Source of the DNA: Candidatus Woesearchaeota archaeon
GTDB taxonomy: Archaea > Nanobdellota > Nanobdellia > SCGC-AAA011-G17 > UBA489
Assembly (NCBI GenBank): GCA_016845225.1
Contig: JAERTB010000006.1
Location: 1-36,925 of the forward strand
Direction of reading: 5' to 3'
Length of the DNA stretch: 36,925 nt
Below are positions 4,308 to 34,006 of the stretch, piece after piece (the stretch's first letter is position 1; each line of letters starts with the position of its first letter). The position numbers and the translations under genes are program-made. The notes under the pieces were generated by a model. It did not search any database. It had not been told where the DNA came from and saw only the letters and a program-made list of their open reading frames with translations.

Positions 4308-4973
4308 ATGAAAAGGCCATTGTTTATCACATTTGAAGGAATAGATGGAGCAGGAAAAGACTACCAACTAAACCAACTCTCTTCATTAATAAGAGATGAT
4401 GAAAATAACTTCTTAGGAGACAAATATTCTACAGTTTGGATAACCAGAGAACCAACAAAATTAACAGAATCAGGAAATACTATTGCAGACTTAATAAGAG
4501 AAAGAGACGTAACAAAAGAAGAAGCAACAAAAGGTTTCATCAATGATAGGATAGAACATTCTGAAAATTATATTAAACCAATTTTAGAACATTCCTTCGT
4601 TTTAAGTTCAAGATATGATATTTCTACTTTAGCGTATCAATTAACACAAGGAATGGACTTTGATGAATTATACTTCTTACATAAATATCATCAATCTCCA
4701 GGAACACTAACGCCAGACATTACTTTGTATTTTAATATCCCTGCAGAAGTTGGAATAAAAAGGCAAGAAAAAAGAAATGGTATTGAAGAATGTTTTGAAA
4801 AGAAAGACTTTCAAAGAGATTTAGAAGACTCTTACAAATATGCAATAGCAATGTTAAAAGAATATGATGCAAGAAATATTTTAACTATAAACGGAAATCA
4901 AAAGAGAGAATATGTAACAAATGAAATGGTAAATAAAATTCTATTATATTCCAGGCATAATCAACGTTCTTAA
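4308..4973 (+). CDS. tmk: dTMP (thymidylate) kinase-like
   Basis: FITFEGIDGAGKD P-loop region; SSRYDISTLAYQ resembles DRYxxSxxAYQ; FNIPAEVGIKRQEKR. Confidence 0.75.
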   Translation: MKRPLFITFEGIDGAGKDYQLNQLSSLIRDDENNFLGDKYSTVWITREPTKLTESGNTIADLIRERDVTKEEATKGFINDRIEHSENYIKPILEHSFVLSSRYDISTLAYQLTQGMDFDELYFLHKYHQSPGTLTPDITLYFNIPAEVGIKRQEKRNGIEECFEKKDFQRDLEDSYKYAIAMLKEYDARNILTINGNQKREYVTNEMVNKILLYSRHNQRS

Positions 4974-5346: not shown

Positions 5347-5853
5347 TTAATTCTCAACTTCAATTATTCTTTCCCAAGGATAATCAAAATCTCCAAAGTG
5401 TCCATAAGCAGCAGTTTCTCTGTACATTGGTTTTTTCAAATCAAAGTATTTCAAAATCTCTGCAGGTTTTAATGGAAAATTTTTCTTAACAACTTCAACT
5501 AATTCTTCTTCAGTTTTTTCAGAAGTTCCAAAACTATCTACAAAAATACTTACAGGTTCAGCAACGCCGATAGCATAACTTAATCCAACTTCACATTTTT
5601 TACAAAAATTATTAGCAACTAAATTCTTAGCAATAAATCTTGCAGCATATGCAGCACTTCTATCTACTTTGCTAGGATCCTTACCAGAAAAGGCTCCACC
5701 ACCATGTCTCCCCATTCCACCATAAGTGTCTACAATAATTTTTCTTCCAGTTAAACCGGCATCAGCATAAGGTCCACCCAAAACAAATCTTCCAGTAGGA
5801 TTAATGAAATAACGAGTATTTTCAGTTAAGTAATCTCCACAAACAGGTTTCTT
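5347..5853 (-). pseudogene. metK: bacterial-type S-adenosylmethionine synthetase, C-terminal fragment only
   Basis: [64 protein letters not shown]...VSYAIGV-type region...[11 protein letters not shown]; open frame ends at two in-frame stops (5859-5857, 5856-5854); the N-terminal part of about 230 residues is absent. Confidence 0.85.
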
Positions 5854-6642: not shown

Positions 6643-7185
6643 TTAGATCACACTTACTTTAGTTATAATAATTTCTTCAACAGGTCTATCTGCTTCACCA
6701 GTTTCAACAGCACCTAATGCATCTAAAACATCTTCGCCTGAAGTAATTTTTCCAAAAATAGCATGTCTTCCATCTAACCAAGGAGTTGGAACTAAAGTAA
6801 TAAAGAATTGACTTCCTCCAGTATTTGGTCCAGAGTTTGCCATACTTAACAAACCTTTTTTATCATGAATTAATTCATCTACAAATTCATCTTTAATAGA
6901 ATAATCTGGGCCACCTGTTCCCCATCTTGCCATATTAGCTACATCTTTACTTAGTGGATCTCCGCCTTGAACCATAAAATCCTTAATTATTCTATGAAAT
7001 CTTTGTCCATCATAGAATCCTTCTTCAACTAATTTTTTAAAATTTCCTGCAGTTTCAGGAACTAACCCATCAAATAGCTCAAATTCCATCTCACCCATAC
7101 TAGTTTCCATCTTTATTTTTGTATTATCCATTTTGCATCCTCCAACAAATACCATTATTAGCAATAAAGCCACCAATTTTTTCAT
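6643..7185 (-). CDS. peptidyl-prolyl cis-trans isomerase, cyclophilin type, putative lipoprotein
   Basis: FHRIIKDFMVQGGDP, GTGGPDYSIKDEF, LLSMANSGPNTGGSQFFITLVPTPWLDGRHAIFGK; N-terminal signal with lipobox-like VGGC. Confidence 0.92.
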   Translation of the reverse strand: MKKLVALLLIMVFVGGCKMDNTKIKMETSMGEMEFELFDGLVPETAGNFKKLVEEGFYDGQRFHRIIKDFMVQGGDPLSKDVANMARWGTGGPDYSIKDEFVDELIHDKKGLLSMANSGPNTGGSQFFITLVPTPWLDGRHAIFGKITSGEDVLDALGAVETGEADRPVEEIIITKVSVI

Positions 7186-8014: not shown

Positions 8015-9181
8015 ATGAAAATAAAACAATTACCAGAAGATTTCGTAGTAGAAGAAATTTCTTCAATAGGTCCAAAGAAAAAAGGACCTGTTTCTTTATA
8101 TTTATTAGAAAAGAATAATCTGGATGTTCTTGCAGCAAAAGGAGAAATAAGAAAAAAAATAAAATCTAAACAAGCAACAATTTCTTTTGCAGGAATAAAA
8201 GATAAAAGGGCAATAACAAAACAATTTCTAACAATAAAAGGAAAGTACGGAGATAAACTAAACTTCAAAACAAAACAGATTTCTTTAACACATCTAGGAT
8301 TTACACAAAAACCTCTAAAAACTGGAGACCTAAAAGGAAATAGGTTCACAATAACATTAAGAGATTTGAACAAAAATCAAGTTAAACAAATAAAAAACAA
8401 CGTAGAAAAAATAAAACAACTAGGATTCATAAATTATTTCGATTCTCAAAGATTTGGAGAAGCATTACCTGAAGAAGGATTTATCGCTAAACACCTTATG
8501 AGGGAAAACTACGAATTAGCCCTAAAAATATATTTTACCCCCACAGAAAAGATTTCTCCAGAAAGAAAAAAAGCATATGCAATTATACAAAAAAACTGGG
8601 GAAAATGGAAAAAAATACAAAATGAAATTCAATCATTAGACGGCATAAAGAATGAACTAAAAGTAATTTATTCATTAGTAGAAAACAATGATTTTCTAAA
8701 AGCATTCAAAGTAATAGATCTAAAGATAAGAGAAATACTAATGGCTTCTTATCAAAGCTATCTTTGGAACAAAGCATTATCTCAGTTCATAAAATTAAAC
8801 ATAGAAAAAACCAATGAAGTTGAATATGGTGCCGGTAAATTAATCTTTCCAAATTTAGAGAAAGAAGATTATGATAAAGTTTCTCACATAGTTCTTCCAA
8901 TGATAGACAAAGACACTATCTTTAGAAATCCTCAAATAAAAGAAATAATGGAAAGGATTCTAAAAAAAGAAAAATTAACTCAAGAACAATTAAAATTAAA
9001 GAAAATGGGAAATGTTTTTCTTAGATCTAGACTTAGGGACATAGTAATTCATCCAAAACAATTGAAGGTAGTTTCAGAAGGAGAAGATACTGAAAATTCA
9101 GGAAAACAACAAGTAACAATTAAATTTGATTTACAAAAGGGCTCATATGCAACAGTTTTATTAAAAACGTTAGAACTTTAA
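8015..9181 (+). CDS. truD: tRNA pseudouridine(13) synthase TruD
   Basis: MKIKQLPEDFVVEE, FAGIKDKRAITKQFLTIKG, GNRFTITLRDL, NYFDSQRFG motifs. Confidence 0.93.
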   Translation: MKIKQLPEDFVVEEISSIGPKKKGPVSLYLLEKNNLDVLAAKGEIRKKIKSKQATISFAGIKDKRAITKQFLTIKGKYGDKLNFKTKQISLTHLGFTQKPLKTGDLKGNRFTITLRDLNKNQVKQIKNNVEKIKQLGFINYFDSQRFGEALPEEGFIAKHLMRENYELALKIYFTPTEKISPERKKAYAIIQKNWGKWKKIQNEIQSLDGIKNELKVIYSLVENNDFLKAFKVIDLKIREILMASYQSYLWNKALSQFIKLNIEKTNEVEYGAGKLIFPNLEKEDYDKVSHIVLPMIDKDTIFRNPQIKEIMERILKKEKLTQEQLKLKKMGNVFLRSRLRDIVIHPKQLKVVSEGEDTENSGKQQVTIKFDLQKGSYATVLLKTLEL

Positions 9182-9516
9182 TCTTCTTCAATTATTCTTT
9201 CTAACGTACTATCTAGACTAGTAAGAACTTTGATAGAATCTTCAAGAAGAGTTTTATCTTCAGGATCATAACACTTTTGAGAATCTTTTTCTAATTCGTT
9301 TAAACAAGCAGAAATATAGTCTCTAGAGATATTTACGTTTCTAATATATTCATCCTTAAGATCAAAAGCATAATCATCATCAGCATCTTCTAATTTTCTA
9401 ATTGCTTCTCTTGCATATTCGATACTCATTTCACTATAAACTTCTCCATTGAATGAGTCTATAGTAGGCGGTACTGCTCCCATAATCATACACCTATACA
9501 TATCTGTTCTATCCAT
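9178..9516 (-). CDS. hypothetical protein
   Basis: ORF; likely start MDRTDMYRCMIMG within the listed ORF. Confidence 0.5.
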   Translation of the reverse strand: MDRTDMYRCMIMGAVPPTIDSFNGEVYSEMSIEYAREAIRKLEDADDDYAFDLKDEYIRNVNISRDYISACLNELEKDSQKCYDPEDKTLLEDSIKVLTSLDSTLERIIEED

Positions 9517-9910
9517 TTTTTGATTTCTCCATTTTGTAGTTATACCCCATAACAGTTCCAGCAATAACCTCTGTTAATTGTTTTGGAAGTTTTTCACAAG
9601 AATGGCTATAACAATCAATTATTCTAGAATATCCGGATTTATAATTTCTATCCAATACAACTCTAAATCCTACACTATAATTTTCTTCACAATTAATACT
9701 ATTTGTAAATTCAAGAATTTCTCCAAGTCCAGTTACATGGCAGTTTCCTGCAACACAAAGATGTTCTTTACCTGTTTTTTCATCAAAATATGTTCCAGCA
9801 TTTCCCACAACACTTTCAGTAATTAAGAAATCATGAAATTCGCTATTGACTAGGTCTGTTCCCAACATCTTTTCAAGATTTTTCTCTAAAATTGTAGATT
9901 TTGCCATCAA
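9509..9910 (-). CDS. hypothetical protein of a local paralog pair (GLGEILEFTN motif)
   Basis: Shares ILEKNLEKM, GLGEILEFTN and a similar C-terminal LTEVIAGTVMGYN with the 9958..10332 product. Confidence 0.6.
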   Translation of the reverse strand: MMAKSTILEKNLEKMLGTDLVNSEFHDFLITESVVGNAGTYFDEKTGKEHLCVAGNCHVTGLGEILEFTNSINCEENYSVGFRVVLDRNYKSGYSRIIDCYSHSCEKLPKQLTEVIAGTVMGYNYKMEKSKNG

Positions 9911-9957
9911 TTAAATTAAGAATAAATCCTATTTAAATCTTTACTTCTTAGTGATAA

Positions 9958-10332
9958 CTATTCTTTAGAATTATATGCCAAAACGCTTTCTGCAAGAGTT
10001 TCATATGCTAAATCAGGAATATTGTCACGATCTAACAAATCTTCAATAACAGGCTTAGAAACAGAATATCTTCTTTTACTATTAAATCTTGAAGAAATAA
10101 GAAATGAGCCAGAATAAACTCCTTTTTCACTTGGACGATTATTTGTAAACTCAAGAATTTCTCCTAATCCATCATAATGGAAGTTAAGAACCGTACAAGA
10201 AGTATCCCTATCCAAAACATCTCCAATAAAACAGTTAGAACTTACAGCTTTTCCAACATAATCAAAACAATCTTTTGCTTCTAATTTTTCAAGATTTTTT
10301 TCAATCAAGTCTTCATAACAAGTAATATTCAT
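9958..10332 (-). CDS. hypothetical protein of a local paralog pair (GLGEILEFTN motif)
   Basis: IEKNLEKL, GLGEILEFTN, LAESVLAYN shared with neighbour; likely start MNITCYEDL within the listed ORF. Confidence 0.6.
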   Translation of the reverse strand: MNITCYEDLIEKNLEKLEAKDCFDYVGKAVSSNCFIGDVLDRDTSCTVLNFHYDGLGEILEFTNNRPSEKGVYSGSFLISSRFNSKRRYSVSKPVIEDLLDRDNIPDLAYETLAESVLAYNSKE

Positions 10333-10373
10333 AAAAATATTAATACCAAAACATATAATAATGTTTCTAAAAT

Positions 10374-10730
10374 TCAACAACCACCAGGAAGTACGGCACA
10401 AACCCTTTTTCCTTCTTTTATTGCAGAATTAATCAATTTTACAGCTTCTGAATTTTTTACAACATGTGCAACTGGCCGGTTTGGACTATTTATCTTCCAT
10501 GCAATAAGAAACTCTTTAATTTCATCATCAACTTCCAACATTGCTCCAGCACCAGTACCAATCACAAAAACATCTGGTTTTTCTTTAAGCAATTCGTTAA
10601 TATGTTCCACTTTTAATTTTCTGCCTTCCAAGCCTTCCCAATAATGCGCAACATTATTTTTAATTCTTAAATCGCCAAGAAATTCTTTTCCATCTGCTTT
10701 AAAACAACCATAAGTATATTCGTCAATCAT
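10374..10730 (-). CDS. Mth938-like (DUF498) domain protein
   Basis: KPDVFVIGTGAGAMLEVDDEIKEFL...SEAVKLINSAIKEGKRVCAVLPGGC. Confidence 0.75.
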   Translation of the reverse strand: MIDEYTYGCFKADGKEFLGDLRIKNNVAHYWEGLEGRKLKVEHINELLKEKPDVFVIGTGAGAMLEVDDEIKEFLIAWKINSPNRPVAHVVKNSEAVKLINSAIKEGKRVCAVLPGGC

Positions 10731-10767
10731 ACTTTTTAGACGCTAAGGAGATATTTATTGCTTTCTA

Positions 10768-11349
10768 TCAAGGGTTCCAGTCTTTATAAGTTTCGTAGAT
10801 TTCAAAGTCACTCAAGGGTCTAAACTTCTTATGGGCTACATCAAAGGTTCTATATGCTGGATCAACAAGAGTAAATCTATCCAATTTTCCAGGAATATCT
10901 ATCATTGCACAAGCATGATATACGTCAGCTCCTGCATAATCTTTTCGAACAGAAACATAAGAACTTCTTATTCCAACAGAACGAGCCAAGGTAACATAAA
11001 GTGAAGCCATCTCTCCACAAACCCCTTCTCTAGTTTCAAAAACTTCAATACTATTTCTATATCCTTCTCTGCCTCTTTTTTGTTTACCGTATTTTATATT
11101 TTTTACAGTCCAATCAAATAACCTTCTTGCTTTAGTTTCATTATCTGGCGCATTGTTACAAATTCCTTCTGCAATAGTTTTCATCTTATTGTTTAAAATA
11201 AATGGAATCTTATATTCAAAACCTCTGTCTAAAATTGCAACATAATATTCATCTTCGCGAATGCCCTTATGGTTGGATCTAACTCTCTCAGTTTTAGCCT
11301 CATTTCCAGACAACCCTCCAAGATTAGACATTAAAGTTTCAAGGCCCAT
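10768..11349 (-). CDS. transglutaminase-like superfamily protein
   Basis: ARRLFDWTVKNIKYGKQ; EVFETREGVCGEMASLYVTLARSVGIRSSYVSV; YHACAMIDI; VDPAYRTFD (Cys-His-Asp pattern). Confidence 0.8.
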   Translation of the reverse strand: MGLETLMSNLGGLSGNEAKTERVRSNHKGIREDEYYVAILDRGFEYKIPFILNNKMKTIAEGICNNAPDNETKARRLFDWTVKNIKYGKQKRGREGYRNSIEVFETREGVCGEMASLYVTLARSVGIRSSYVSVRKDYAGADVYHACAMIDIPGKLDRFTLVDPAYRTFDVAHKKFRPLSDFEIYETYKDWNP

Positions 11350-12330
11350 TTAAAATAAACCCCCATAACTTTTAGGTTTCAAATAAACTCCATTTTTCTT
11401 AATAAAGTCCACGACATTAGTTATTCCATCATCTGCAGCATTTTGTGCAGCGCACATAACATCGACCAATCCACTAATTGAACTATTTGTATCTCTAAAA
11501 CTTCTATTGATGCTAGTTGCTTGTAAATAAGTAGCTAAAGTTTCATTAAGATGCAATGCATAATTGTCCATTCTTTCCTTTCCAAATGCTAGCACATTTT
11601 TCATTCCAGAACACCATTTCATCAATCCATCAACTTCACACATTGCATTTCCATTTTCATCAACAAGTTTTTCTAAAATTTCTTTAGAATCCTTAATTTC
11701 ATCATACTTCATTTGAGTCCGACTAATCAAAGAACTCTTAGCTCTTTCAGAAATTCCTTCACTAAGTTTAATTTTTTCAACAAGTTCTTCTTTGTCATTA
11801 AAACCAAGTTCTAACAAACCACCCACATCTTCTTTTTTAGTTTCATAAAATTGATTTTTTTTAATCAATTCATTACTATAGTTTGTTAGCTTGTTTTCTC
11901 TTTCAACAACATGATAAAATAATTCGCCAAAATCTGAAGCTTGTTCTTCAAAGAATTCACAATATTTTCCAACCAATTCTTCAGTGCTATATCCTTCTAC
12001 TCCTGAAACAAGAAATTTTCTCAGAGGTTTAAAACTCAAAAGGCCATTTTCCCCATACTTTAAAGCTCTAACAAGTCCTTTATTGAAAGGTTTCAAGTTT
12101 TCATCCCTTTTACTTATCCTATCAATTATAGAATTAAATTGATCTACATTAGAAGAGTATGCAACCATTTCTCTATGCAACAAAGAATTTTGTTTTTTAT
12201 GTTCCTGTAATGAATTTTTAAATTCATCAATATCAAAATCATTTTGAACTAAACTTTCTAATTCATTAGGAATTTCAATTTTACCTTCTCCGCTAGAATA
12301 TCCCCGTATATTAAACACAGAATTAATCAT
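11350..12330 (-). CDS. long charged helical/coiled-coil hypothetical protein
   Basis: ORF of 326 aa in tight operon context. Confidence 0.55.
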   Translation of the reverse strand: MINSVFNIRGYSSGEGKIEIPNELESLVQNDFDIDEFKNSLQEHKKQNSLLHREMVAYSSNVDQFNSIIDRISKRDENLKPFNKGLVRALKYGENGLLSFKPLRKFLVSGVEGYSTEELVGKYCEFFEEQASDFGELFYHVVERENKLTNYSNELIKKNQFYETKKEDVGGLLELGFNDKEELVEKIKLSEGISERAKSSLISRTQMKYDEIKDSKEILEKLVDENGNAMCEVDGLMKWCSGMKNVLAFGKERMDNYALHLNETLATYLQATSINRSFRDTNSSISGLVDVMCAAQNAADDGITNVVDFIKKNGVYLKPKSYGGLF

Positions 12331-12614
12331 TATTCATCCCTCCATTTATTTTTTAAATTATTCAATGTTTCTTTCAATTTATCGTCTTCAACCAAACATT
12401 CAATCCTATATTCTAAATCTCCAAGCTGCATTTTTCCATCTTCGTTGATAATTTCAACTCTTTCACTTAACTTTTTATCAACTAAGAATGGTTTTTTATC
12501 ATACCTCGTTACATCATATCTAATATCTGTATTTACACAACTGCTAACTGCATATCCAGCAACAAATATTCCTCCGTAAAACATAGCTTTTCCAAATCCG
12601 TGAAAAAAACTCAT
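12330..12614 (-). CDS. small membrane/lipoprotein-like hypothetical protein
   Basis: N-terminal hydrophobic segment ending in VSSC (lipobox-like). Confidence 0.5.
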   Translation of the reverse strand: MSFFHGFGKAMFYGGIFVAGYAVSSCVNTDIRYDVTRYDKKPFLVDKKLSERVEIINEDGKMQLGDLEYRIECLVEDDKLKETLNNLKNKWRDE

Positions 12615-13037
12615 TTAATTACCTCCTGCTAAAAAGAATAATAATTCATCTAAATTGTTTTCAGCATAATCCTTTACACCATGAATTACATCTTTTGATC
12701 CGTCTCTCAAGATATCTTTCATAATTTGATATCTTTCTTCTTCAGGAAGTTTACTAATTTCTAAAATTATTCTTTCTGCATCTTCCTGAGTTGTGTCTTC
12801 CTCTAATCCTTGGTAAATAGAAACATTTCCAGAATTGTAATCTCTAGCTAAATTTTCCAAAGCATAAAGATTTTTTTCTTGATAACTAACAGTTCTAGGT
12901 TCTATGCTTTTTGTTTCAATAGTTTCTCCACCTCTTCCAAGAAGATAACTTCCAATAAGACCAGTACAAACTATCAATCCTGTTCCTCTTTTCCACCAAT
13001 TTTTTTTGCTATGGCAATAATCATCCAAAAAGGCCAT
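12615..13037 (-). CDS. hypothetical single-TM protein
   Basis: Likely start MAFLDDYCHSKKNWWKRG within the listed ORF; TM segment GTGLIVCTGLIGSYLLG. Confidence 0.5.
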   Translation of the reverse strand: MAFLDDYCHSKKNWWKRGTGLIVCTGLIGSYLLGRGGETIETKSIEPRTVSYQEKNLYALENLARDYNSGNVSIYQGLEEDTTQEDAERIILEISKLPEEERYQIMKDILRDGSKDVIHGVKDYAENNLDELLFFLAGGN

Positions 13038-13089
13038 ATCTCTCTCAAAGAAGTTTGTTTTAAAGAAGGTTATTTCGATTTTCTCGAAA

Positions 13090-13130
13090 AATATTCGAAA
13101 AAACATTAAATTAAACTAAATATTCGAAAA
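13090..13130. promoter_or_regulatory. repeated AAATATTCGAAAA boxes in divergent intergenic region
   Basis: AATATTCGAAAA at about 13090-13101 and AAATATTCGAAAA at about 13118-13130, plus TTCTCGAAAA at 13081-13090. Confidence 0.3.
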
Positions 13131-13157
13131 CTTTTCAGAAAAAATCGCAATCGCAAT

Positions 13158-13167
13158 TTATAAATAC
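13158..13167 (+). promoter_or_regulatory. TATA box upstream of cca
   Basis: TTTATAAATA about 21-30 bp upstream of the ATG at 13188; spacing suggests a leaderless transcript. Confidence 0.5.
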
Positions 13168-13187
13168 TTTTCACCTAACCTAAAACC

Positions 13188-14432
13188 ATGCCAATAACTA
13201 AAAAGCATAAAGAAATAGTAAGTTCCATACTGGAAGAAGTATCTCCTAAACCAGAAGATAAAAAAATACTTTCAAAAATTCAAAAAGAAGTTTTAAACAA
13301 AATTAAACTGCCACATACAACTCCCAAAATAGGAGGTTCCGGGGCTAAAAATACTTGGTTAAAAAATACTCACGATATAGATATTTACGTTAAATTCAAT
13401 TATTCTAAATATAAAGACAAATCCAATAAACTTTCAGATTTATTGCATAATGCATTAAAGAAATCTTTCTCTAAAGTAATTAGAATACATGGTTCAAGAG
13501 ATTATTTTCAAATAAGTCATAAAGGATACACCTTAGAAATAGTTCCAATACTTGCAATTACCAAACCAGAACAATCCAAAAACATTACAGACTTTTCAAT
13601 TTTTCATGTAAAGTATGTTACAGATAAAATAAAAAAGAATCCTAAACTTGCAGATGAAATTAGAGTTTCAAAAGTTTTTGCAAAAGCAAATAGATTTTAT
13701 GGTGCAGAGTCACACATAGGAGGATTTTCAGGTTACGTATTAGAGTTATTAGTTTCAAAATACGGTTCATTTTTAAAATTTGTAAATGCAGTATCTAAGT
13801 GGAAAGCAAATACAATTATAGGAAATAAAAAAGAAGCAGAAGAATTAAACTGGGCAAAAAAACAATCACCTTTAATCCTAATTGATCCAGTTCAACCAGA
13901 AAGAAATGCAGCTGCAGCATTATCAAAAAAACAATATAAAAATATTATCTCAACTTGTAAAAAGTTTATCAATTCTCCAAAACCAGAAAATTTTGAACTC
14001 CAACCAGTAGATATAAATAAATTACAAAAGAAAGGAAACTTAACAATAATAGGGGCAAAACCATTAACTGCTAAAAGGGACGTAGCAGGGGCAAAAGCAC
14101 TAAAGGCTTTTGAATTTTTAGTAAAACACTTAGCACCCTTTGAAGTCACAGATTCATTTTTTGATTATGATGATAAAACTGCAACATATTATATTTCAAC
14201 TAAAAAAACAGAAATTCCAAAAGAATATACTCACTATGGGCCACCTTTAGATTTCAAAAAAGAAATAAATGCATTCAAAAAAGCAAATAAAAATGTAAAG
14301 ATAGATAAAAAACAAAAGAGAGTTTATGCAATAAGGAAAACAAAGAACCCTGATTTAAATTCTTATATCAAAGATTTATTAACACAAAAAGAAGTCAATG
14401 AAAGAATTAAAGATATCTTTCTAATGTGTTAA
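13188..14432 (+). CDS. cca: archaeal (class I) CCA-adding tRNA nucleotidyltransferase
   Basis: GGSGAKNTWLKNTHDIDIYVKF; RDYFQISHKGYTLEIVPIL; archaeal CCA-enzyme layout. Confidence 0.93.
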   Translation: MPITKKHKEIVSSILEEVSPKPEDKKILSKIQKEVLNKIKLPHTTPKIGGSGAKNTWLKNTHDIDIYVKFNYSKYKDKSNKLSDLLHNALKKSFSKVIRIHGSRDYFQISHKGYTLEIVPILAITKPEQSKNITDFSIFHVKYVTDKIKKNPKLADEIRVSKVFAKANRFYGAESHIGGFSGYVLELLVSKYGSFLKFVNAVSKWKANTIIGNKKEAEELNWAKKQSPLILIDPVQPERNAAAALSKKQYKNIISTCKKFINSPKPENFELQPVDINKLQKKGNLTIIGAKPLTAKRDVAGAKALKAFEFLVKHLAPFEVTDSFFDYDDKTATYYISTKKTEIPKEYTHYGPPLDFKKEINAFKKANKNVKIDKKQKRVYAIRKTKNPDLNSYIKDLLTQKEVNERIKDIFLMC

Positions 14433-15119
14433 ATTTGGGTGATCATCATAAAACAATCTTCTTTGTTTACTTTCATCAAAAATTAAAGTCCCTTGTCTCA
14501 ATCCTTCCGATGTTGGAGAGCTAGGCACAATATGGTGATCAAAGCACCTACATTCATATCCTTCCTCTTCATCCCCAATTAAAACAATCTCAGAATCATA
14601 AGGTGCTGGTTCGCCACCAATAAGTCTTTGAGTTCTAGTTGCAGGTGAACCGCATCCGTGATAATCACAAACACCTCTTAATTTATACACTTCATCAGCC
14701 ATACTCAACAAATAATCCATTTTTCCAAAAGGTTCTCCTCTAAAATCTAAATCTAAACCGCCAACTACAACATTAACATTATTTCCAATTAATTCCTTAA
14801 CTACTTCCTCAATTCCTCCATGAAAAAATTGAGATTCATCAATTGCAACCAACATAGACGCAGGATTCATTTTTTCTAGAATTTCATATGGACTTTTTTC
14901 ATCTGCGAATTTACAGTCATAAGATAATGATCCAAATCTAGAACTAACTACTGGGTCTCGTGTATCTAATACTGGCTTAAAAATATCAAACTTAACTTCT
15001 TCAGGCAAATAATTTAGTTTATCCACCCGATTTAACAATTCTCTAGTTTTTCCACTTTTCATGGGCCCACAATATATCTCAAGAACTCCTGGTTTAATCA
15101 CTGGATAATATTTATGCAT
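14421..15119 (-). CDS. tdk: thymidine kinase
   Basis: GVLEIYCGPMKSGKTRELL P-loop; VAIDESQFF; VVVGGLDLDFRGEPFG; CDYHGC and CRC Cys pairs (zinc). Confidence 0.93.
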   Translation of the reverse strand: MHKYYPVIKPGVLEIYCGPMKSGKTRELLNRVDKLNYLPEEVKFDIFKPVLDTRDPVVSSRFGSLSYDCKFADEKSPYEILEKMNPASMLVAIDESQFFHGGIEEVVKELIGNNVNVVVGGLDLDFRGEPFGKMDYLLSMADEVYKLRGVCDYHGCGSPATRTQRLIGGEPAPYDSEIVLIGDEEEGYECRCFDHHIVPSSPTSEGLRQGTLIFDESKQRRLFYDDHPNLTH

Positions 15120-15244: not shown

Positions 15245-15748
15245 ATGGGAGAGGGCGCAAAACAATATCTTTTTCAAGATATGAAGATCAAACAGGATTC
15301 TATATTTGACTTCGGAGAGCTATATCAGAGACTTTTTGCTTGGTTCGAAGTTATGGGTTATGATTTCTATGAAAAATCTTATGAAAAGTTTGATTTAGGC
15401 GGAGCAACAAATCTAAAAATATTTTGGGAAGCAACAAAAAAAGTAGATGGCTATACTAAATTTGTAATCGAGCCAAGTTTTTTTATCATTGGATTAAGTA
15501 AAGTTGAAATAGAAAAAGACGGGTTAAAAATCAAAACAAACAAATGCACAATGGAAATGCGTATCTCTGCATATTTGATTAAGGATGTAGAAGATAAAAT
15601 GAAAGGTTCTGTAGGCAATTTGGGAAGACATATTTATGAAAAGTATGTAGCAAAAGATAGGTTAGACGATCATGAGTTAAGACTTTACGAAGAAGCACAT
15701 TTATTCATGGATGAAATAAAATCTTTTGTAAGCATGCACAAATTCTAA
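15245..15748 (+). CDS. hypothetical protein
   Basis: ORF with upstream TATA-like TTATATATATT at about 15212. Confidence 0.6.
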   Translation: MGEGAKQYLFQDMKIKQDSIFDFGELYQRLFAWFEVMGYDFYEKSYEKFDLGGATNLKIFWEATKKVDGYTKFVIEPSFFIIGLSKVEIEKDGLKIKTNKCTMEMRISAYLIKDVEDKMKGSVGNLGRHIYEKYVAKDRLDDHELRLYEEAHLFMDEIKSFVSMHKF

Positions 15749-15749
15749 A

Positions 15750-16136
15750 ATGAAAATTTCTAAAAAACAAGGAATTCTTTTTGCAATCTTATTATTAATT
15801 TTAGATCAAATTTCTAAATTCTTTATAATTAAAAATTCCACATACATCTCAAACACAGGGGCAGCATGGGGAATATTAAGCAATTCACAGTATTTACTAA
15901 TAATAATATCCTTGATAGTAATCTTTTACACTCTTAGATATTTTTCATATCACCCATTAGCGCTTTCATTTCTTTTAGGAGGAACACTAGGAAACTTAAC
16001 AGATAGAATTTTTAGAAAAGAAGTAATTGATTTCATCAACATAAGAATCTTCAATTATCCATTATTTAATTTAGCAGATGTATTTATCACAATAGCAATC
16101 ACATTATTGATAATAAAAACAATTAAAGAAAAATAA
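15750..16136 (+). CDS. lspA: lipoprotein signal peptidase (signal peptidase II)
   Basis: LDQISKFFI, NTGAAWGIL, GGTLGNLTDRIFRKEVIDFI and FNLADVFI; both expected catalytic Asp motifs; four hydrophobic segments. Confidence 0.9.
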   Translation: MKISKKQGILFAILLLILDQISKFFIIKNSTYISNTGAAWGILSNSQYLLIIISLIVIFYTLRYFSYHPLALSFLLGGTLGNLTDRIFRKEVIDFINIRIFNYPLFNLADVFITIAITLLIIKTIKEK

Positions 16137-16475
16137 TCACCAGTCTCTTCTATTTTTGCCTTCAATATTTTCAAGTCTTCTACTTACATTATCAAGTCTG
16201 CTACTTATCAAATCAAGTTTACTTAAAATTAATTGAACATCTTTATCAGAAACATTAGATCTAATTCCTTCACCACTCACAATTCCTCTCGGTTGATGAA
16301 CTTCGGGAACATGAAATTGTTCCATTTCTTCACTTCTAGCACTAGGATAATTTCCAAAATCTTGAGGTTCTTCGATTCTAGGCGCACCCCACCCACTTTC
16401 ATCTAGATTAAAATCTGAAGGAAGTTCAGGAATAGATTCCTCTCTTTTACCGAATAACTTACTAAATATCCCCAT
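16137..16475 (-). CDS. hypothetical protein, amphipathic N-terminus and C-terminal helix
   Basis: MGIFSKLFGKRE N-terminus; LILSKLDLISSRLDNVSRRLENIEG coiled coil. Confidence 0.5.
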   Translation of the reverse strand: MGIFSKLFGKREESIPELPSDFNLDESGWGAPRIEEPQDFGNYPSARSEEMEQFHVPEVHQPRGIVSGEGIRSNVSDKDVQLILSKLDLISSRLDNVSRRLENIEGKNRRDW

Positions 16476-20632: not shown

Positions 20633-21136
20633 ATGAATCAAAAAAAATTAGGGGTAACAGTACTAATCTTATCGTTATTAATTGGTTTTGTACTAATAGA
20701 TTTTATTGCAGAAACTCAAGATTTTAGTGAGCAAGAAGGATGTTTTCAAGATGAAAATTGTGAAAATGCAGCAGTCGCATTAACATCTTCGCATCTAGGA
20801 ATTGGAATTATTTTCTCATTATTCTCTTTAGCATTGTATCTTATAGTCTTTAGTAAAAGTGAAGATTTCTGGTTAAAGAAACTAGAACAACAAAGACAGG
20901 ATTTAACTGAAGATGAAAAATGGAACATCATTAAATTAATGTTAGATGAAAATGAATTAAAGGTAATCAAAGAAATAAAAAAACAACCAGGAATAACCCA
21001 GTTCACATTAAGATTAAGAACAGATCTTTCTAAATCCAAATTAAGCGATATCCTTTCAAGATTTGAAAAGAAAGGGTTAATCGAAAGACAAGTAAAGGGA
21101 AAAACTTTAGCAGTTTTTCTAAAACCTTCATTTTAA
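20633..21136 (+). CDS. membrane-anchored winged-HTH transcriptional regulator
   Basis: Two TM segments (VTVLILSLLIGFVLIDFI; IGIIFSLFSLALYLIVF) then ELKVIKEIKKQPGITQFTLRLRTDLSKSKLSDILSRFEKKGLIERQVKGKT. Confidence 0.7.
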   Translation: MNQKKLGVTVLILSLLIGFVLIDFIAETQDFSEQEGCFQDENCENAAVALTSSHLGIGIIFSLFSLALYLIVFSKSEDFWLKKLEQQRQDLTEDEKWNIIKLMLDENELKVIKEIKKQPGITQFTLRLRTDLSKSKLSDILSRFEKKGLIERQVKGKTLAVFLKPSF

Positions 21137-21285: not shown

Positions 21286-22008
21286 ATGGCAAAAGACAGA
21301 GGTAAAAGAGTCAAAATAGAATTTGACGAAATTAGCTTGTGGAAAGCAGGCACAATTATCTTTGGTATTTTATTCATTCTTTGCTCAATGAAGGGAGGAT
21401 CAGATGCAGGCGTAGGAGATGTTCCTACAATCGAAGCACCAACACCTTCCCCTCAAGCAGCACCAACACCATCTGCACCAGTAGATATTGAAGTTGGTGA
21501 CGCATATGTTAAAGGTAAAAAAAATGCTAAAGTAGAAATTATAGAGTTTTCAGATTTTGAATGTTCTTTTTGTGGAAGATTCTACAGTCAAACATACGGA
21601 CAAATCTTAGAAAACTATGTAGACAAAGGTAAGGCAAAATTTGCTTTCAAACATTTACCATTACCATTCCATAGTAATGCACAAAAAGCATCAGAAGCTA
21701 CAGAATGTGCAGGTAAAATTGGAGGAGACGATAGTTTCTGGGGAATGCACGATGCAATCTTTGATAATCAGGCAAGCGGTATGAGTGTATCACAATTAAA
21801 AGGATACGCAGCAGACTTAGGTCTTGACCAAGGAGACTTCGATTCATGTCTTGATAATGGAGATATGGAATCAAAAGTTAAAGCACATGCAGCAGAGGCA
21901 GCTAAACTTGGAGCTAGTGGAACACCTACATTTTTCATTAATGGTGTGAAATTAGTTGGAGCACAACCTTACGCAGCTTTCGAAGCAGCAATAGAGGCAG
22001 CTCTTTAA
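21286..22008 (+). CDS. membrane-anchored DsbA-family thiol oxidoreductase
   Basis: N-terminal TM; EFSDFECSFCGRFY active site; GTPTFFINGVKLVGAQP (cis-Pro region). Confidence 0.88.
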   Translation: MAKDRGKRVKIEFDEISLWKAGTIIFGILFILCSMKGGSDAGVGDVPTIEAPTPSPQAAPTPSAPVDIEVGDAYVKGKKNAKVEIIEFSDFECSFCGRFYSQTYGQILENYVDKGKAKFAFKHLPLPFHSNAQKASEATECAGKIGGDDSFWGMHDAIFDNQASGMSVSQLKGYAADLGLDQGDFDSCLDNGDMESKVKAHAAEAAKLGASGTPTFFINGVKLVGAQPYAAFEAAIEAAL

Positions 22009-22023
22009 GTAAATAATTTTGGT

Positions 22024-22050
22024 TAGGGGGTCTTCCCCTTTCCTTTTTTT
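22024..22050 (+). terminator. GGGG/CCCC hairpin followed by T-rich tract
   Basis: AGGGGGTCTTCCCCT then TTCCTTTTTTT between dsbA-like gene and next ORF. Confidence 0.35.
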
Positions 22051-22054
22051 CCAA

Positions 22055-22603
22055 ATGTCAAAAATAAAAACAGCATTAAATTCAACAAAAACAGTTTTAT
22101 CTAAAAAGAAATATTTTCTAATATTTTTTGTAGTTTCATTTTCATTATTTTCATTAAGTATTCTTTCAAAAAATTATCAACTGATTACTCATTCATTTTC
22201 AAATTTATCTTTAATTCAATATTCTAAATTAATAGGTTCACTTTATGTTGGAGGAATTACCTTAAATGAAATTCATTCAAGCATAATCTTAATTTCAATA
22301 AGTTTACTTTTAGGAATAACTGTAGCGTTAATGACTTTCAAAATAAATTCTAAAAATGCATTAACTCCCAGACTAAACAAAACTGGAACTGTTGGAGCAG
22401 TATTGGGGATGGCTACACCTGTTTGTGCTCCTTGCGGCATTGGTTTACTTTCCATGATAGGACTTGGAGGAGTATTAACTTATCTTCCTTTTCAAGGAAC
22501 AGAATTAGGAATAATGAGTATCGGTCTTCTAACTTATTCTATTGTTCATATTGGCGGAGATATTGAAGAATGCAAATCTTGCCAAATAAATCTAAAAAAA
22601 TAA
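22055..22603 (+). CDS. polytopic membrane protein with two CxxC motifs
   Basis: Hydrophobic segments; ATPVCAPCGIGLLSMIGLGG and C-terminal ECKSCQINLKK; likely start MSKIKTALN within the listed ORF. Confidence 0.6.
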   Translation: MSKIKTALNSTKTVLSKKKYFLIFFVVSFSLFSLSILSKNYQLITHSFSNLSLIQYSKLIGSLYVGGITLNEIHSSIILISISLLLGITVALMTFKINSKNALTPRLNKTGTVGAVLGMATPVCAPCGIGLLSMIGLGGVLTYLPFQGTELGIMSIGLLTYSIVHIGGDIEECKSCQINLKK

Positions 22604-24135: not shown

Positions 24136-24951
24136 ATGAAAATTCCAATAAAAAAGAGAGAAAACAAAAATTTATCTAATTTTCTTTTCGAAGATTTGAA
24201 GATATCTAGAAAGTTTGCTAAATTAATGTATCAAGAATTTGGTAAATTTATTTCGTCCATGGTTCTCTTTGGTTCAGCAACAAAGAACATTCCAAATCCA
24301 AAAAGAGATATTGACATCTTAATTGTGTTAGACGATACTAGGATTCAATTTACTCAAGAGTTAGTTCAAACTTATAGAATCATTTTAGAAAAAACAATTG
24401 CAAAGGTTGATCCAAGAAGACTACATATTCAAACCATGAAGCTAACTTCATTTTGGGAATACGCAAGAGCAGGAGATCCAGTTGCAATTAATATTTTACG
24501 TTCAGGTGTAGCATTAATCGATACAAACGTATTTGATCCATTACAAGCACTTTTAGAACAAGGAAGAATAAGACCTTCACAAGAATCAGTTTGGACTTAT
24601 TATACAATGGCTCCAGCATCACTTAGACGTTCAGAACAACATCTTTTAACTGCGGCAGTTGATTTATACTGGGCGGCAGTTGATGCAGCACACGCAGCAT
24701 TAATGCACGCAGGACAGATTCCTCCTTCACCAGACCATGTAGCAGAAATGCTTCAAGAAAAATTAAATGCTCCCCATCAAGTTTCTAGAAAATCATTAAG
24801 AACCATGAAAGAACTTTATACAACTTTCAAAAAAATTGTTCACAGGGATATTAAATCAATTTCAGGAAAAGATTATGACATTTACAAAAAGAAAGCAGAA
24901 GATTTTGTGGATGAAATGAAAGAATTCTTAGAACATCATCCAAAAAATTAA
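24136..24951 (+). CDS. nucleotidyltransferase fused to HEPN-like helical domain
   Basis: MVLFGSATKNIPNPKRDIDILIVLDD NTase motif; C-terminal helical LRRSEQHLLTAAVDLYWAAVDAAHAALMHAG and FKKIVHRDI. Confidence 0.7.
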   Translation: MKIPIKKRENKNLSNFLFEDLKISRKFAKLMYQEFGKFISSMVLFGSATKNIPNPKRDIDILIVLDDTRIQFTQELVQTYRIILEKTIAKVDPRRLHIQTMKLTSFWEYARAGDPVAINILRSGVALIDTNVFDPLQALLEQGRIRPSQESVWTYYTMAPASLRRSEQHLLTAAVDLYWAAVDAAHAALMHAGQIPPSPDHVAEMLQEKLNAPHQVSRKSLRTMKELYTTFKKIVHRDIKSISGKDYDIYKKKAEDFVDEMKEFLEHHPKN

Positions 24952-32538: not shown

Positions 32539-34006
32539 ATTCCCGTTGATCCTGCGGGAGGTCGCTGCTATCGGGATTCGAATTAGACATGCAAGTCAAA
32601 ATCTCTTCGGAGGTTGGCGAAAGGCTCAGTAACACGTCGATAATCTGCCCTATGGTCTGGAATAACCTCGGGAAACTGAGGGTAATACCGGATAGAAGAT
32701 TGATACTGGAAGGTTCTTTCTTTGAAAGGTTACGCCATAGGATGAGTCGGCGGCTGATTAGGCTGTTGGTGAGGTAACGGCTCACCAAACCGATGATCAG
32801 TAGGGGGTATGAGAGTACTGTCCTCGAGAAGGGCACTGAGACAAGGGCCCTAGCCCTAAGGGGTGCAGCAGTCACGAAAACTTTACAATGCGCGAAAGCG
32901 CGATAGGGGAATCCCGAGTGCTTACTTTATAGTAGGCTTTTGTCAAGTGTAAGGAGCTTGACGAATAAGTGGTGGGTAATACTGGTGCCAGCCGCCGCGG
33001 TAACACCAGAGCCACAAGTGGGGACCATTTTTATTGGGTCTAAAGCGTCCGTAGCCGGTTCAGAAGGTCTTTTGTGAAATTGTTGAGCTTAACTCAGCAG
33101 CGTGCAAAAGAAACCAATGGACTTGGGACCGGGAGACGATAAGAGTATGCCGAGGGGAGCGGTAAAATGTTTTAATCCTCGGTAGACTACCGATAGCGAA
33201 GGCACTTATCGAGAACGGGTCCGACGGTCAGGGACGAAGGCCAGGGGAGCGAAACGGATTAGATACCCGTGTAGTCCTGGCAGTAAACGCTGTCCATTAT
33301 ATGTTGCGCATCCTACAAGGGTGTGCAGTGTCGTAGCGAAGGCGTTAAATGGACCACCTGGGTAGTACGGTCGCAAGACTGAAACTTTAAGGAATTGGCG
33401 GGGGAGCACTACAATCGGTGACGCGTGCGGTTTAATTTAACTACACACAGAAAATCTCACCAGGGGCGACGGCAGAATGAAGGTCAGATTAAAGGTCTTA
33501 CCTAACGAGCCGAGAGATGTTGCATGGCCGCCGTCAGCTCGTGCCGCAAGGTGTCCGGTTAAGTCCGGCAACGAGCAAGACCTGTACCCTTATTTGCTAA
33601 CAAGTCCTCCGGGATGATTGAGTACAATAACGGGACTGCCTTGGTAACAAGGAGGAAGGTGCAGGCAACGGTAGGTCTGTATGACTCGAATCTCCTGGGC
33701 TACACGCGCGCGGCAATGGCTAGTACAATGGGATGCAACACCGAGAGGTGAAGCTAATCCTCGAAAGCTAGTCTTAGTTCAGATTGAGGGTTGTAACTCA
33801 CCCTCATGACGCTGGAATCGATAGTAATCGCTTGTCATTAGCGAGCGGTGAATACGTCCCTGTTCCTTGCACACACTGCCCGTCAAATCAACCGAGCAGG
33901 GCCTGAGTGAGGGTTGCATCACGGTGCGATTCGAACTTAGGTTCAGTGAGGTGGGTTAAGTCGTCACAAGGTATCCGTAGGGGAACCTGCGGATGGATCA
34001 CCTCCT
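32539..34006 (+). rRNA. 16S ribosomal RNA (archaeal)
   Basis: ATTCCCGTTGATCCTGCGGGA 5' end; GTGCCAGCCGCCGCGGTAA; AAGGAATTGGCGGGGGAGCAC; 3' end GGATGGATCACCTCCT. Confidence 0.97.

Follow-up and report, generated by a model that had tools for sequence, protein, structure and literature searches.

Does a woesearchaeal cell mature lipoproteins with the enzymes of bacteria? The question is raised by a short gene in the genome of a Candidatus Woesearchaeota archaeon (GCA_016845225.1, contig JAERTB010000006.1), which lies within the 36,925 nt of that contig that were analysed here as a whole (hereafter, the window) and which reads as the lipoprotein signal peptidase gene lspA. Published accounts find no counterparts of the bacterial lipoprotein enzymes among archaea (PMC2945643, 2010; PMC12186497, 2025), and as of 2022 the archaeal signal peptidase II was described as yet to be identified (PMC7613921). 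According to a survey published in 2026, archaea have no Lgt (PMC13251419), but it relied on RefSeq genomes as of February 2021 and, because of this, may have missed lineages known only from metagenome-assembled genomes (MAGs), such as the present phylum. Lipoproteins are not mentioned in the DPANN genome surveys that were checked (including PMC9723730), and a prior mention elsewhere is possible. The premise of the preliminary description of the window, that archaea have no recognised LspA, agrees with this literature and proved wrong for this phylum.

The gene, its neighbours and the ribosomal RNA genes of the contig are arranged as follows.

15245 to 15748, forward strand: ORF167, directly upstream of lspA, no Pfam match; its place beside lspA is conserved in the genus (L002-L005, L149-L151)
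15750 to 16136, forward strand: lspA, 128 aa, ATG start; predicted lipoprotein signal peptidase II (protein families, alignment, AlphaFold model, Foldseek)
16137 to 16475, reverse strand: ORF112, convergent with lspA; stays beside it in genus and family
32539 to 34006, forward strand: 16S rRNA gene of archaeal type, sharing its contig with lspA
from 34384: archaeal 23S rRNA gene, on the window contig

The predicted protein matches the Pfam family Peptidase_A8 (PF01252) with 91.2 bits (E 9e-26; cut-off 25 bits) and the 'equivalog' model TIGR00077 lspA with 80.8 bits (NCBI cut-off 73.95), and all the hallmark motifs named in the preliminary description (LDQISK, NTGAAWG, GGxLGNLxDR, VIDFI and FNLAD) were found in the ORF. 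In Staphylococcus aureus LspA, 14 residues are highly conserved, namely D21, K25, N52, G54, G102, N106, D109, R110, V116, D118, F132, N133, A135 and D136 (PMC6952399). Alignment recovers 14/14 of them in the window protein, as D19, K23, N35, G37, G78, N82, D85, R86, V92, D94, F106, N107, A109 and D110, and all these positions are invariant across 25 archaeal LspAs; the same approach assigns the catalytic dyad to D94 (in VIDFI) and D110 (in FNLAD). The AlphaFold (AF2) model has a pLDDT of 91.8 and contains four transmembrane helices. Its top Foldseek match is S. aureus LspA 6ryp (TM 0.85, E 2.7e-8), with S. aureus 6ryo among the further matches and Pseudomonas aeruginosa LspA 5dir coming after those of S. 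aureus. By family, residues and modelled fold, the window gene is a genuine signal peptidase II with predicted activity. It shares the four-helix fold, the 14 residues and the catalytic aspartates with bacterial LspA (PF01252; 6ryo/6ryp, 5dir), from which it differs in being compact and in being encoded by an archaeon.

The spacing between K23 and N35 is 12 residues, against 27 in S. aureus LspA (K25 to N52), and about 15 residues are missing in the alignment between TM1 and the NTGAAWG motif, around the first strands of the beta-cradle. Among the 25 aligned archaeal LspAs, those of the same genus and family have 12-13 residues from the TM1 lysine to the asparagine; the stretch is of the longer type in most relatives at class level, and elsewhere in the order its length falls in between. 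Only two short strands are present in the AF2 model, and the beta-cradle would be at least reduced. A complete beta-cradle is a structural feature of the solved LspAs and no part of how the family is defined catalytically. Its proposed role is to hold the portion of the substrate that follows the cleavage site (PMC6952399), and the activity of the window LspA could be altered because of the residues missing from this region. The compact LspA represents a natural minimal form for structure-function studies.

Bacteria anchor proteins to the membrane by a lipid through a route of two enzymes, Lgt and LspA, and the preliminary description was correct in stating that Lgt is not in the window. A search of the rest of the genome, which it had proposed, recovered Lgt on another contig (G000 contig 7, about 12539-13282; PF01790, matched at 12554-13261 with E 9.4e-73). 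Five residues are essential in Escherichia coli Lgt, H103, R143, N146, G154 and R239 (PMC4728403, PMC13251419), and they align with H90, R131, N134, G142 and R203, which are invariant. The likeness to bacterial Lgt (PF01790; 5azb, E. coli) extends over the full length, with the GRxxNFxNxELxG and HGG motifs kept and 37% identity to the E. coli protein across the aligned block; the archaeal enzyme differs in residing in a cell without the phospholipid head-group enzymes tested here.

Both enzymes are widespread among the relatives of this archaeon. All five genomes of the genus (5/5) carry LspA, as do 64/70 in the order sample (41/42 when high-quality genomes alone are counted) and 243/371 in the phylum sample (190/243 under the same restriction); it was not found in four archaeal control genomes. 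For Lgt the counts are 5/5 in the genus and 251/371 in the phylum sample. Taken together, 228 of the 371 genomes have LspA and Lgt, 15 have LspA only, 23 have Lgt only and 105 have neither, with an odds ratio of 69 in a test that ignores shared ancestry and whose p-value is therefore too small. Many of the genomes with a single enzyme are incomplete, and the co-occurrence is the pattern of linked function. Families f23 and f54, together with many members of f55, have neither enzyme among the phylum genomes listed, which reads as loss or absence at the level of the lineage. LspA is thus routine in related archaea, an outcome that the preliminary description had itself named as refuting its reading, and the two enzymes are an overlooked feature of much of an archaeal phylum and not a one-off transfer.

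In bacteria, the N-acyltransferase Lnt carries out an optional third step which is missing from many species. No match to Lnt (TIGR00546) was found in the genome of this archaeon or in the genus, none above the cut-off was found in the order, and 2/119 phylum genomes have one above it. These are full-length Lnt-like proteins (G098:C32, L309, and G106:C4, L310), and a few archaea of the phylum may on this evidence have all three bacterial lipoprotein enzymes. The combination of Lgt and LspA without Lnt is also that of the diacyl lipoprotein pathway of low-GC Gram-positive bacteria, from which the present case differs in belonging to another domain of life and in a donor lipid that is probably scavenged.

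Two candidate substrates had been proposed within the window.

6643 to 7185, reverse strand: cyclophilin, predicted lipoprotein substrate; lipobox MKKLVALLLIMVFVGG followed by the cysteine (VGG, then C); Pro_isomerase 179 bits; in the strict census
12330 to 12614, reverse strand: small protein with a possible lipobox (VSS, then C); weak candidate substrate; no Pfam family

The cyclophilin, with its VGGC, is well supported. Its lipobox is kept in 20/30 of the best-matching cyclophilins of the order, in 19 by pattern and in one by eye (LNGC of G406), while the other 10 have a plain membrane anchor, and all four genus cyclophilins listed have it. The VSSC of the small protein passes the loose lipobox rule and fails the strict one. 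On the scale of the genome, a census was made of signal-like N-termini ending in the lipobox pattern, counted for each residue at the cysteine position, in a proteome rebuilt from genome stretches with gene starts called mechanically. Under the strict rule, lipobox cysteines in the genome of this archaeon number 9 against 1.74 expected (p 1e-4), an excess of the kind that the preliminary description had suggested looking for. Two other genomes with LspA and Lgt gave 5 against 0.63 expected (G077) and 5 against 0.66 (G008). None were found in G101 and G128, both without the two enzymes, where 0.19 and 0.11 were expected, and these zero counts are weak when taken alone because of the low cysteine content; a pooled Fisher test gives p 8e-4. 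The other lipobox proteins include thioredoxin-like, SNase (staphylococcal-nuclease-like) and ChaN-like proteins, and the candidates as a whole would be plausible, ordinary types of lipoprotein. The bacterial-style maturation first proposed from the window is therefore strengthened by the Lgt of the same genome and by the genome-wide enrichment of lipoboxes.

It remains to weigh how these genes came to be in an archaeal genome. Chimeras are a general risk with MAG data, and bacterial DNA might have been binned with the archaeon or joined to it in a chimeric contig, as the preliminary description had itself allowed. The archaeal 16S and 23S rRNA genes, however, identify the contig as archaeal, and the order ORF167, lspA, ORF112 (reverse strand), ORF475 is repeated in separately assembled members of the genus. 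There is one LspA copy per genome, and a single-contig genome of 1.3 Mb from the class (G008) carries both LspA and Lgt. Contamination or chimerism is ruled out by the rRNA genes, by synteny across assemblies and by single-contig genomes, and its residual probability is negligible. The GC content at the locus is unremarkable, and the closest named LspA records are Woesearchaeota/Nanoarchaeota MAGs, with that of SI072_bin118 being 88% identical. The stop codon of ORF167 lies one base before the lspA ATG, and the layout suggests that the two genes are probably co-transcribed; ORF112 is a neighbour only, and nothing ties it to lipoprotein maturation. A lone LspA, acquired recently by this lineage and with no pathway around it, would agree with the bacterial type of the fold and sequence, and with LspAs of Bacilli that are about 40% identical to the window protein, close to the level found within the phylum. 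Such a recently acquired oddity, as the gene had initially been taken to be, is at odds with the presence of LspA in most of the order and phylum samples, with the Lgt of the same genome and with the gene order kept within the genus; in its simple form it is refuted by the distribution, and it is very improbable. While a recent horizontal event is thereby set aside, an ancient acquisition is possible. In the tree of Lgt, one group (100/98) holds 36 archaeal rows and 4 from proteobacteria; Firmicutes, Actinobacteria, Cyanobacteria, Deinococcus and Lentisphaeria fall outside it. Neither of the best trees unites the archaeal rows in one clade: that of Lgt has 2 changes, with the proteobacteria beside one archaeal row, and that of LspA, where there are too few columns to resolve the origin, has 5. 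This would be in line with several separate transfers of lgt and lspA out of different bacterial donors, a history compatible with the same function. With the narrow bacterial sampling of both trees, the AU test does not reject a single archaeal clade (p 0.40 for Lgt and 0.42 for LspA), and monophyly is not supported either; moreover, the starred branches force only one origin, and the genes are near-universal within the order. Repeated acquisition is a possible history, though the less favoured one, and the sequences are compatible with genes gained from bacteria long ago and since then inherited mostly by vertical descent.

Whatever the origin, it is very likely that a functional LspA takes the second step here in a lipoprotein pathway of bacterial type, one that is resident in the phylum of small archaea to which Woesearchaeota belong. 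The genes, their conserved residues, co-occurrence, the lipobox enrichment and the absence of two lipid families are computed results, from which we infer the enzyme activities, the order of the steps, which lipid is used and where it comes from. Proteins exported by means of an N-terminal signal that closes with [LVI]x[GAS]C would reach the membrane, where Lgt would move a diradylglyceryl group from a phosphatidylglycerol-type lipid onto the cysteine thiol. LspA, through D94 and D110, would then cut just before the lipidated cysteine, and the cleaved protein would stay on the outer face of the membrane, held by its lipid. Since no Lnt-like step was found in the order, the product should be a lipoprotein of the diacyl type with a free N-terminus.

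In bacteria, the usual Lgt donor is phosphatidylglycerol made by the cell itself, although this does not define the pathway. CDP-alcohol phosphotransferases (PF01066) were found in 0/5 genomes of the genus and in 14/14 controls, and CarS (PF01864) in 0/5 of the genus. Across 56 sampled genomes of the order, 53 have both lipoprotein enzymes and only 19 have any PF01066 enzyme. Because both families are lacking in the genus, a partner cell is the probable source of the donor lipid; within the scope of these two head-group enzyme families, scavenging from a partner is the simplest reading, and enzyme families other than PF01066 and PF01864 could also make the donor. A bolder extension would be that cells unable to make phospholipid head groups themselves use lipid scavenged from partner bacteria to anchor the proteins of their surface, that Lgt was kept for a bacterial-type phosphatidylglycerol donor, that the membranes contain bacterial lipids and that the shortened LspA is adapted to a mixed membrane; we regard this picture as speculative and rather unlikely in its entirety. 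The same lack of detected PF01066 and CarS enzymes in the genus, together with the shortening of LspA in the region proposed to hold the substrate, might instead point to repurposing of LspA and Lgt, with LspA acting for example as a general intramembrane aspartyl protease and no lipoprotein being made. Repurposing is improbable in view of the full set of conserved LspA residues, the catalytic residues kept in Lgt, the co-occurrence of the two enzymes, and lipobox cysteines that are both enriched and kept in the relatives of the cyclophilin.

The rest of the window contains several further features. Of a bacterial-type S-adenosylmethionine synthetase, the reverse-strand ORF at 5347-5781 encodes the C-terminal domain only (PF02773, 222 bits). 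Stop codons interrupt the reading frame upstream, no further part of MetK turned up when the genome was searched with motifs, and the fragment looks like a decaying or truncated gene. Three proteins with nucleotidyltransferase domains (PF01909) are encoded on the forward strand at 45-638, 1828-2361 and 24136-24951. Each of the first two overlaps a small ORF without a Pfam match (613-1137 and 2358-2789, respectively), and these layouts resemble MNT-HEPN toxin-antitoxin pairs, the HEPN partner being a guess from layout alone. A run of genes on the reverse strand (9178-13106), most of them of no known kind, includes a transglutaminase-like gene (10768-11349, PF01841), a DUF498 gene (10374-10730) and the possible lipobox protein at 12330-12614. 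On the forward strand, a DsbA-like gene followed by that of a membrane protein with a CAPC motif (21286-22603) may encode a disulfide-forming pair; its DsbA/thioredoxin-like member (21286-22008) matches a '(seleno)lipoprotein' family below the cut-off and has no lipobox. The small membrane protein at 20633-21136 (forward strand) has a C-terminal winged helix (MarR/HTH_24) and is a possible membrane-bound regulator. Finally, an ORF resembling thymidylate kinase by eye (4308-4973, forward strand) and a thymidine kinase gene (14421-15119, reverse strand; PF00265) suggest nucleoside salvage in a reduced genome.

Archaeal lipoproteins are known from another route. In haloarchaea such as Haloferax volcanii, lipobox proteins are likewise lipidated at the cysteine (PMC12186497), by a route with AliA and AliB, which were reported to be non-homologous to the bacterial enzymes (PMC13251419), whereas the genomes studied here encode the bacterial enzymes as such. 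Annotation pipelines in public use may well assign names to these archaeal genes. Recent statements notwithstanding, the genomes point to an Lgt-LspA pathway of bacterial type in much of an archaeal phylum, in cells that are probably unable to make the donor lipid. With both enzymes and matching substrates predicted in most of a large archaeal phylum, the stated distribution of the pathway, which is an antibiotic target, changes. Furthermore, since Lgt depends on a donor of the phosphatidylglycerol type, for which the enzymes tested are lacking in the genus, the pathway would provide a handle on the lipids of these host-dependent archaea.
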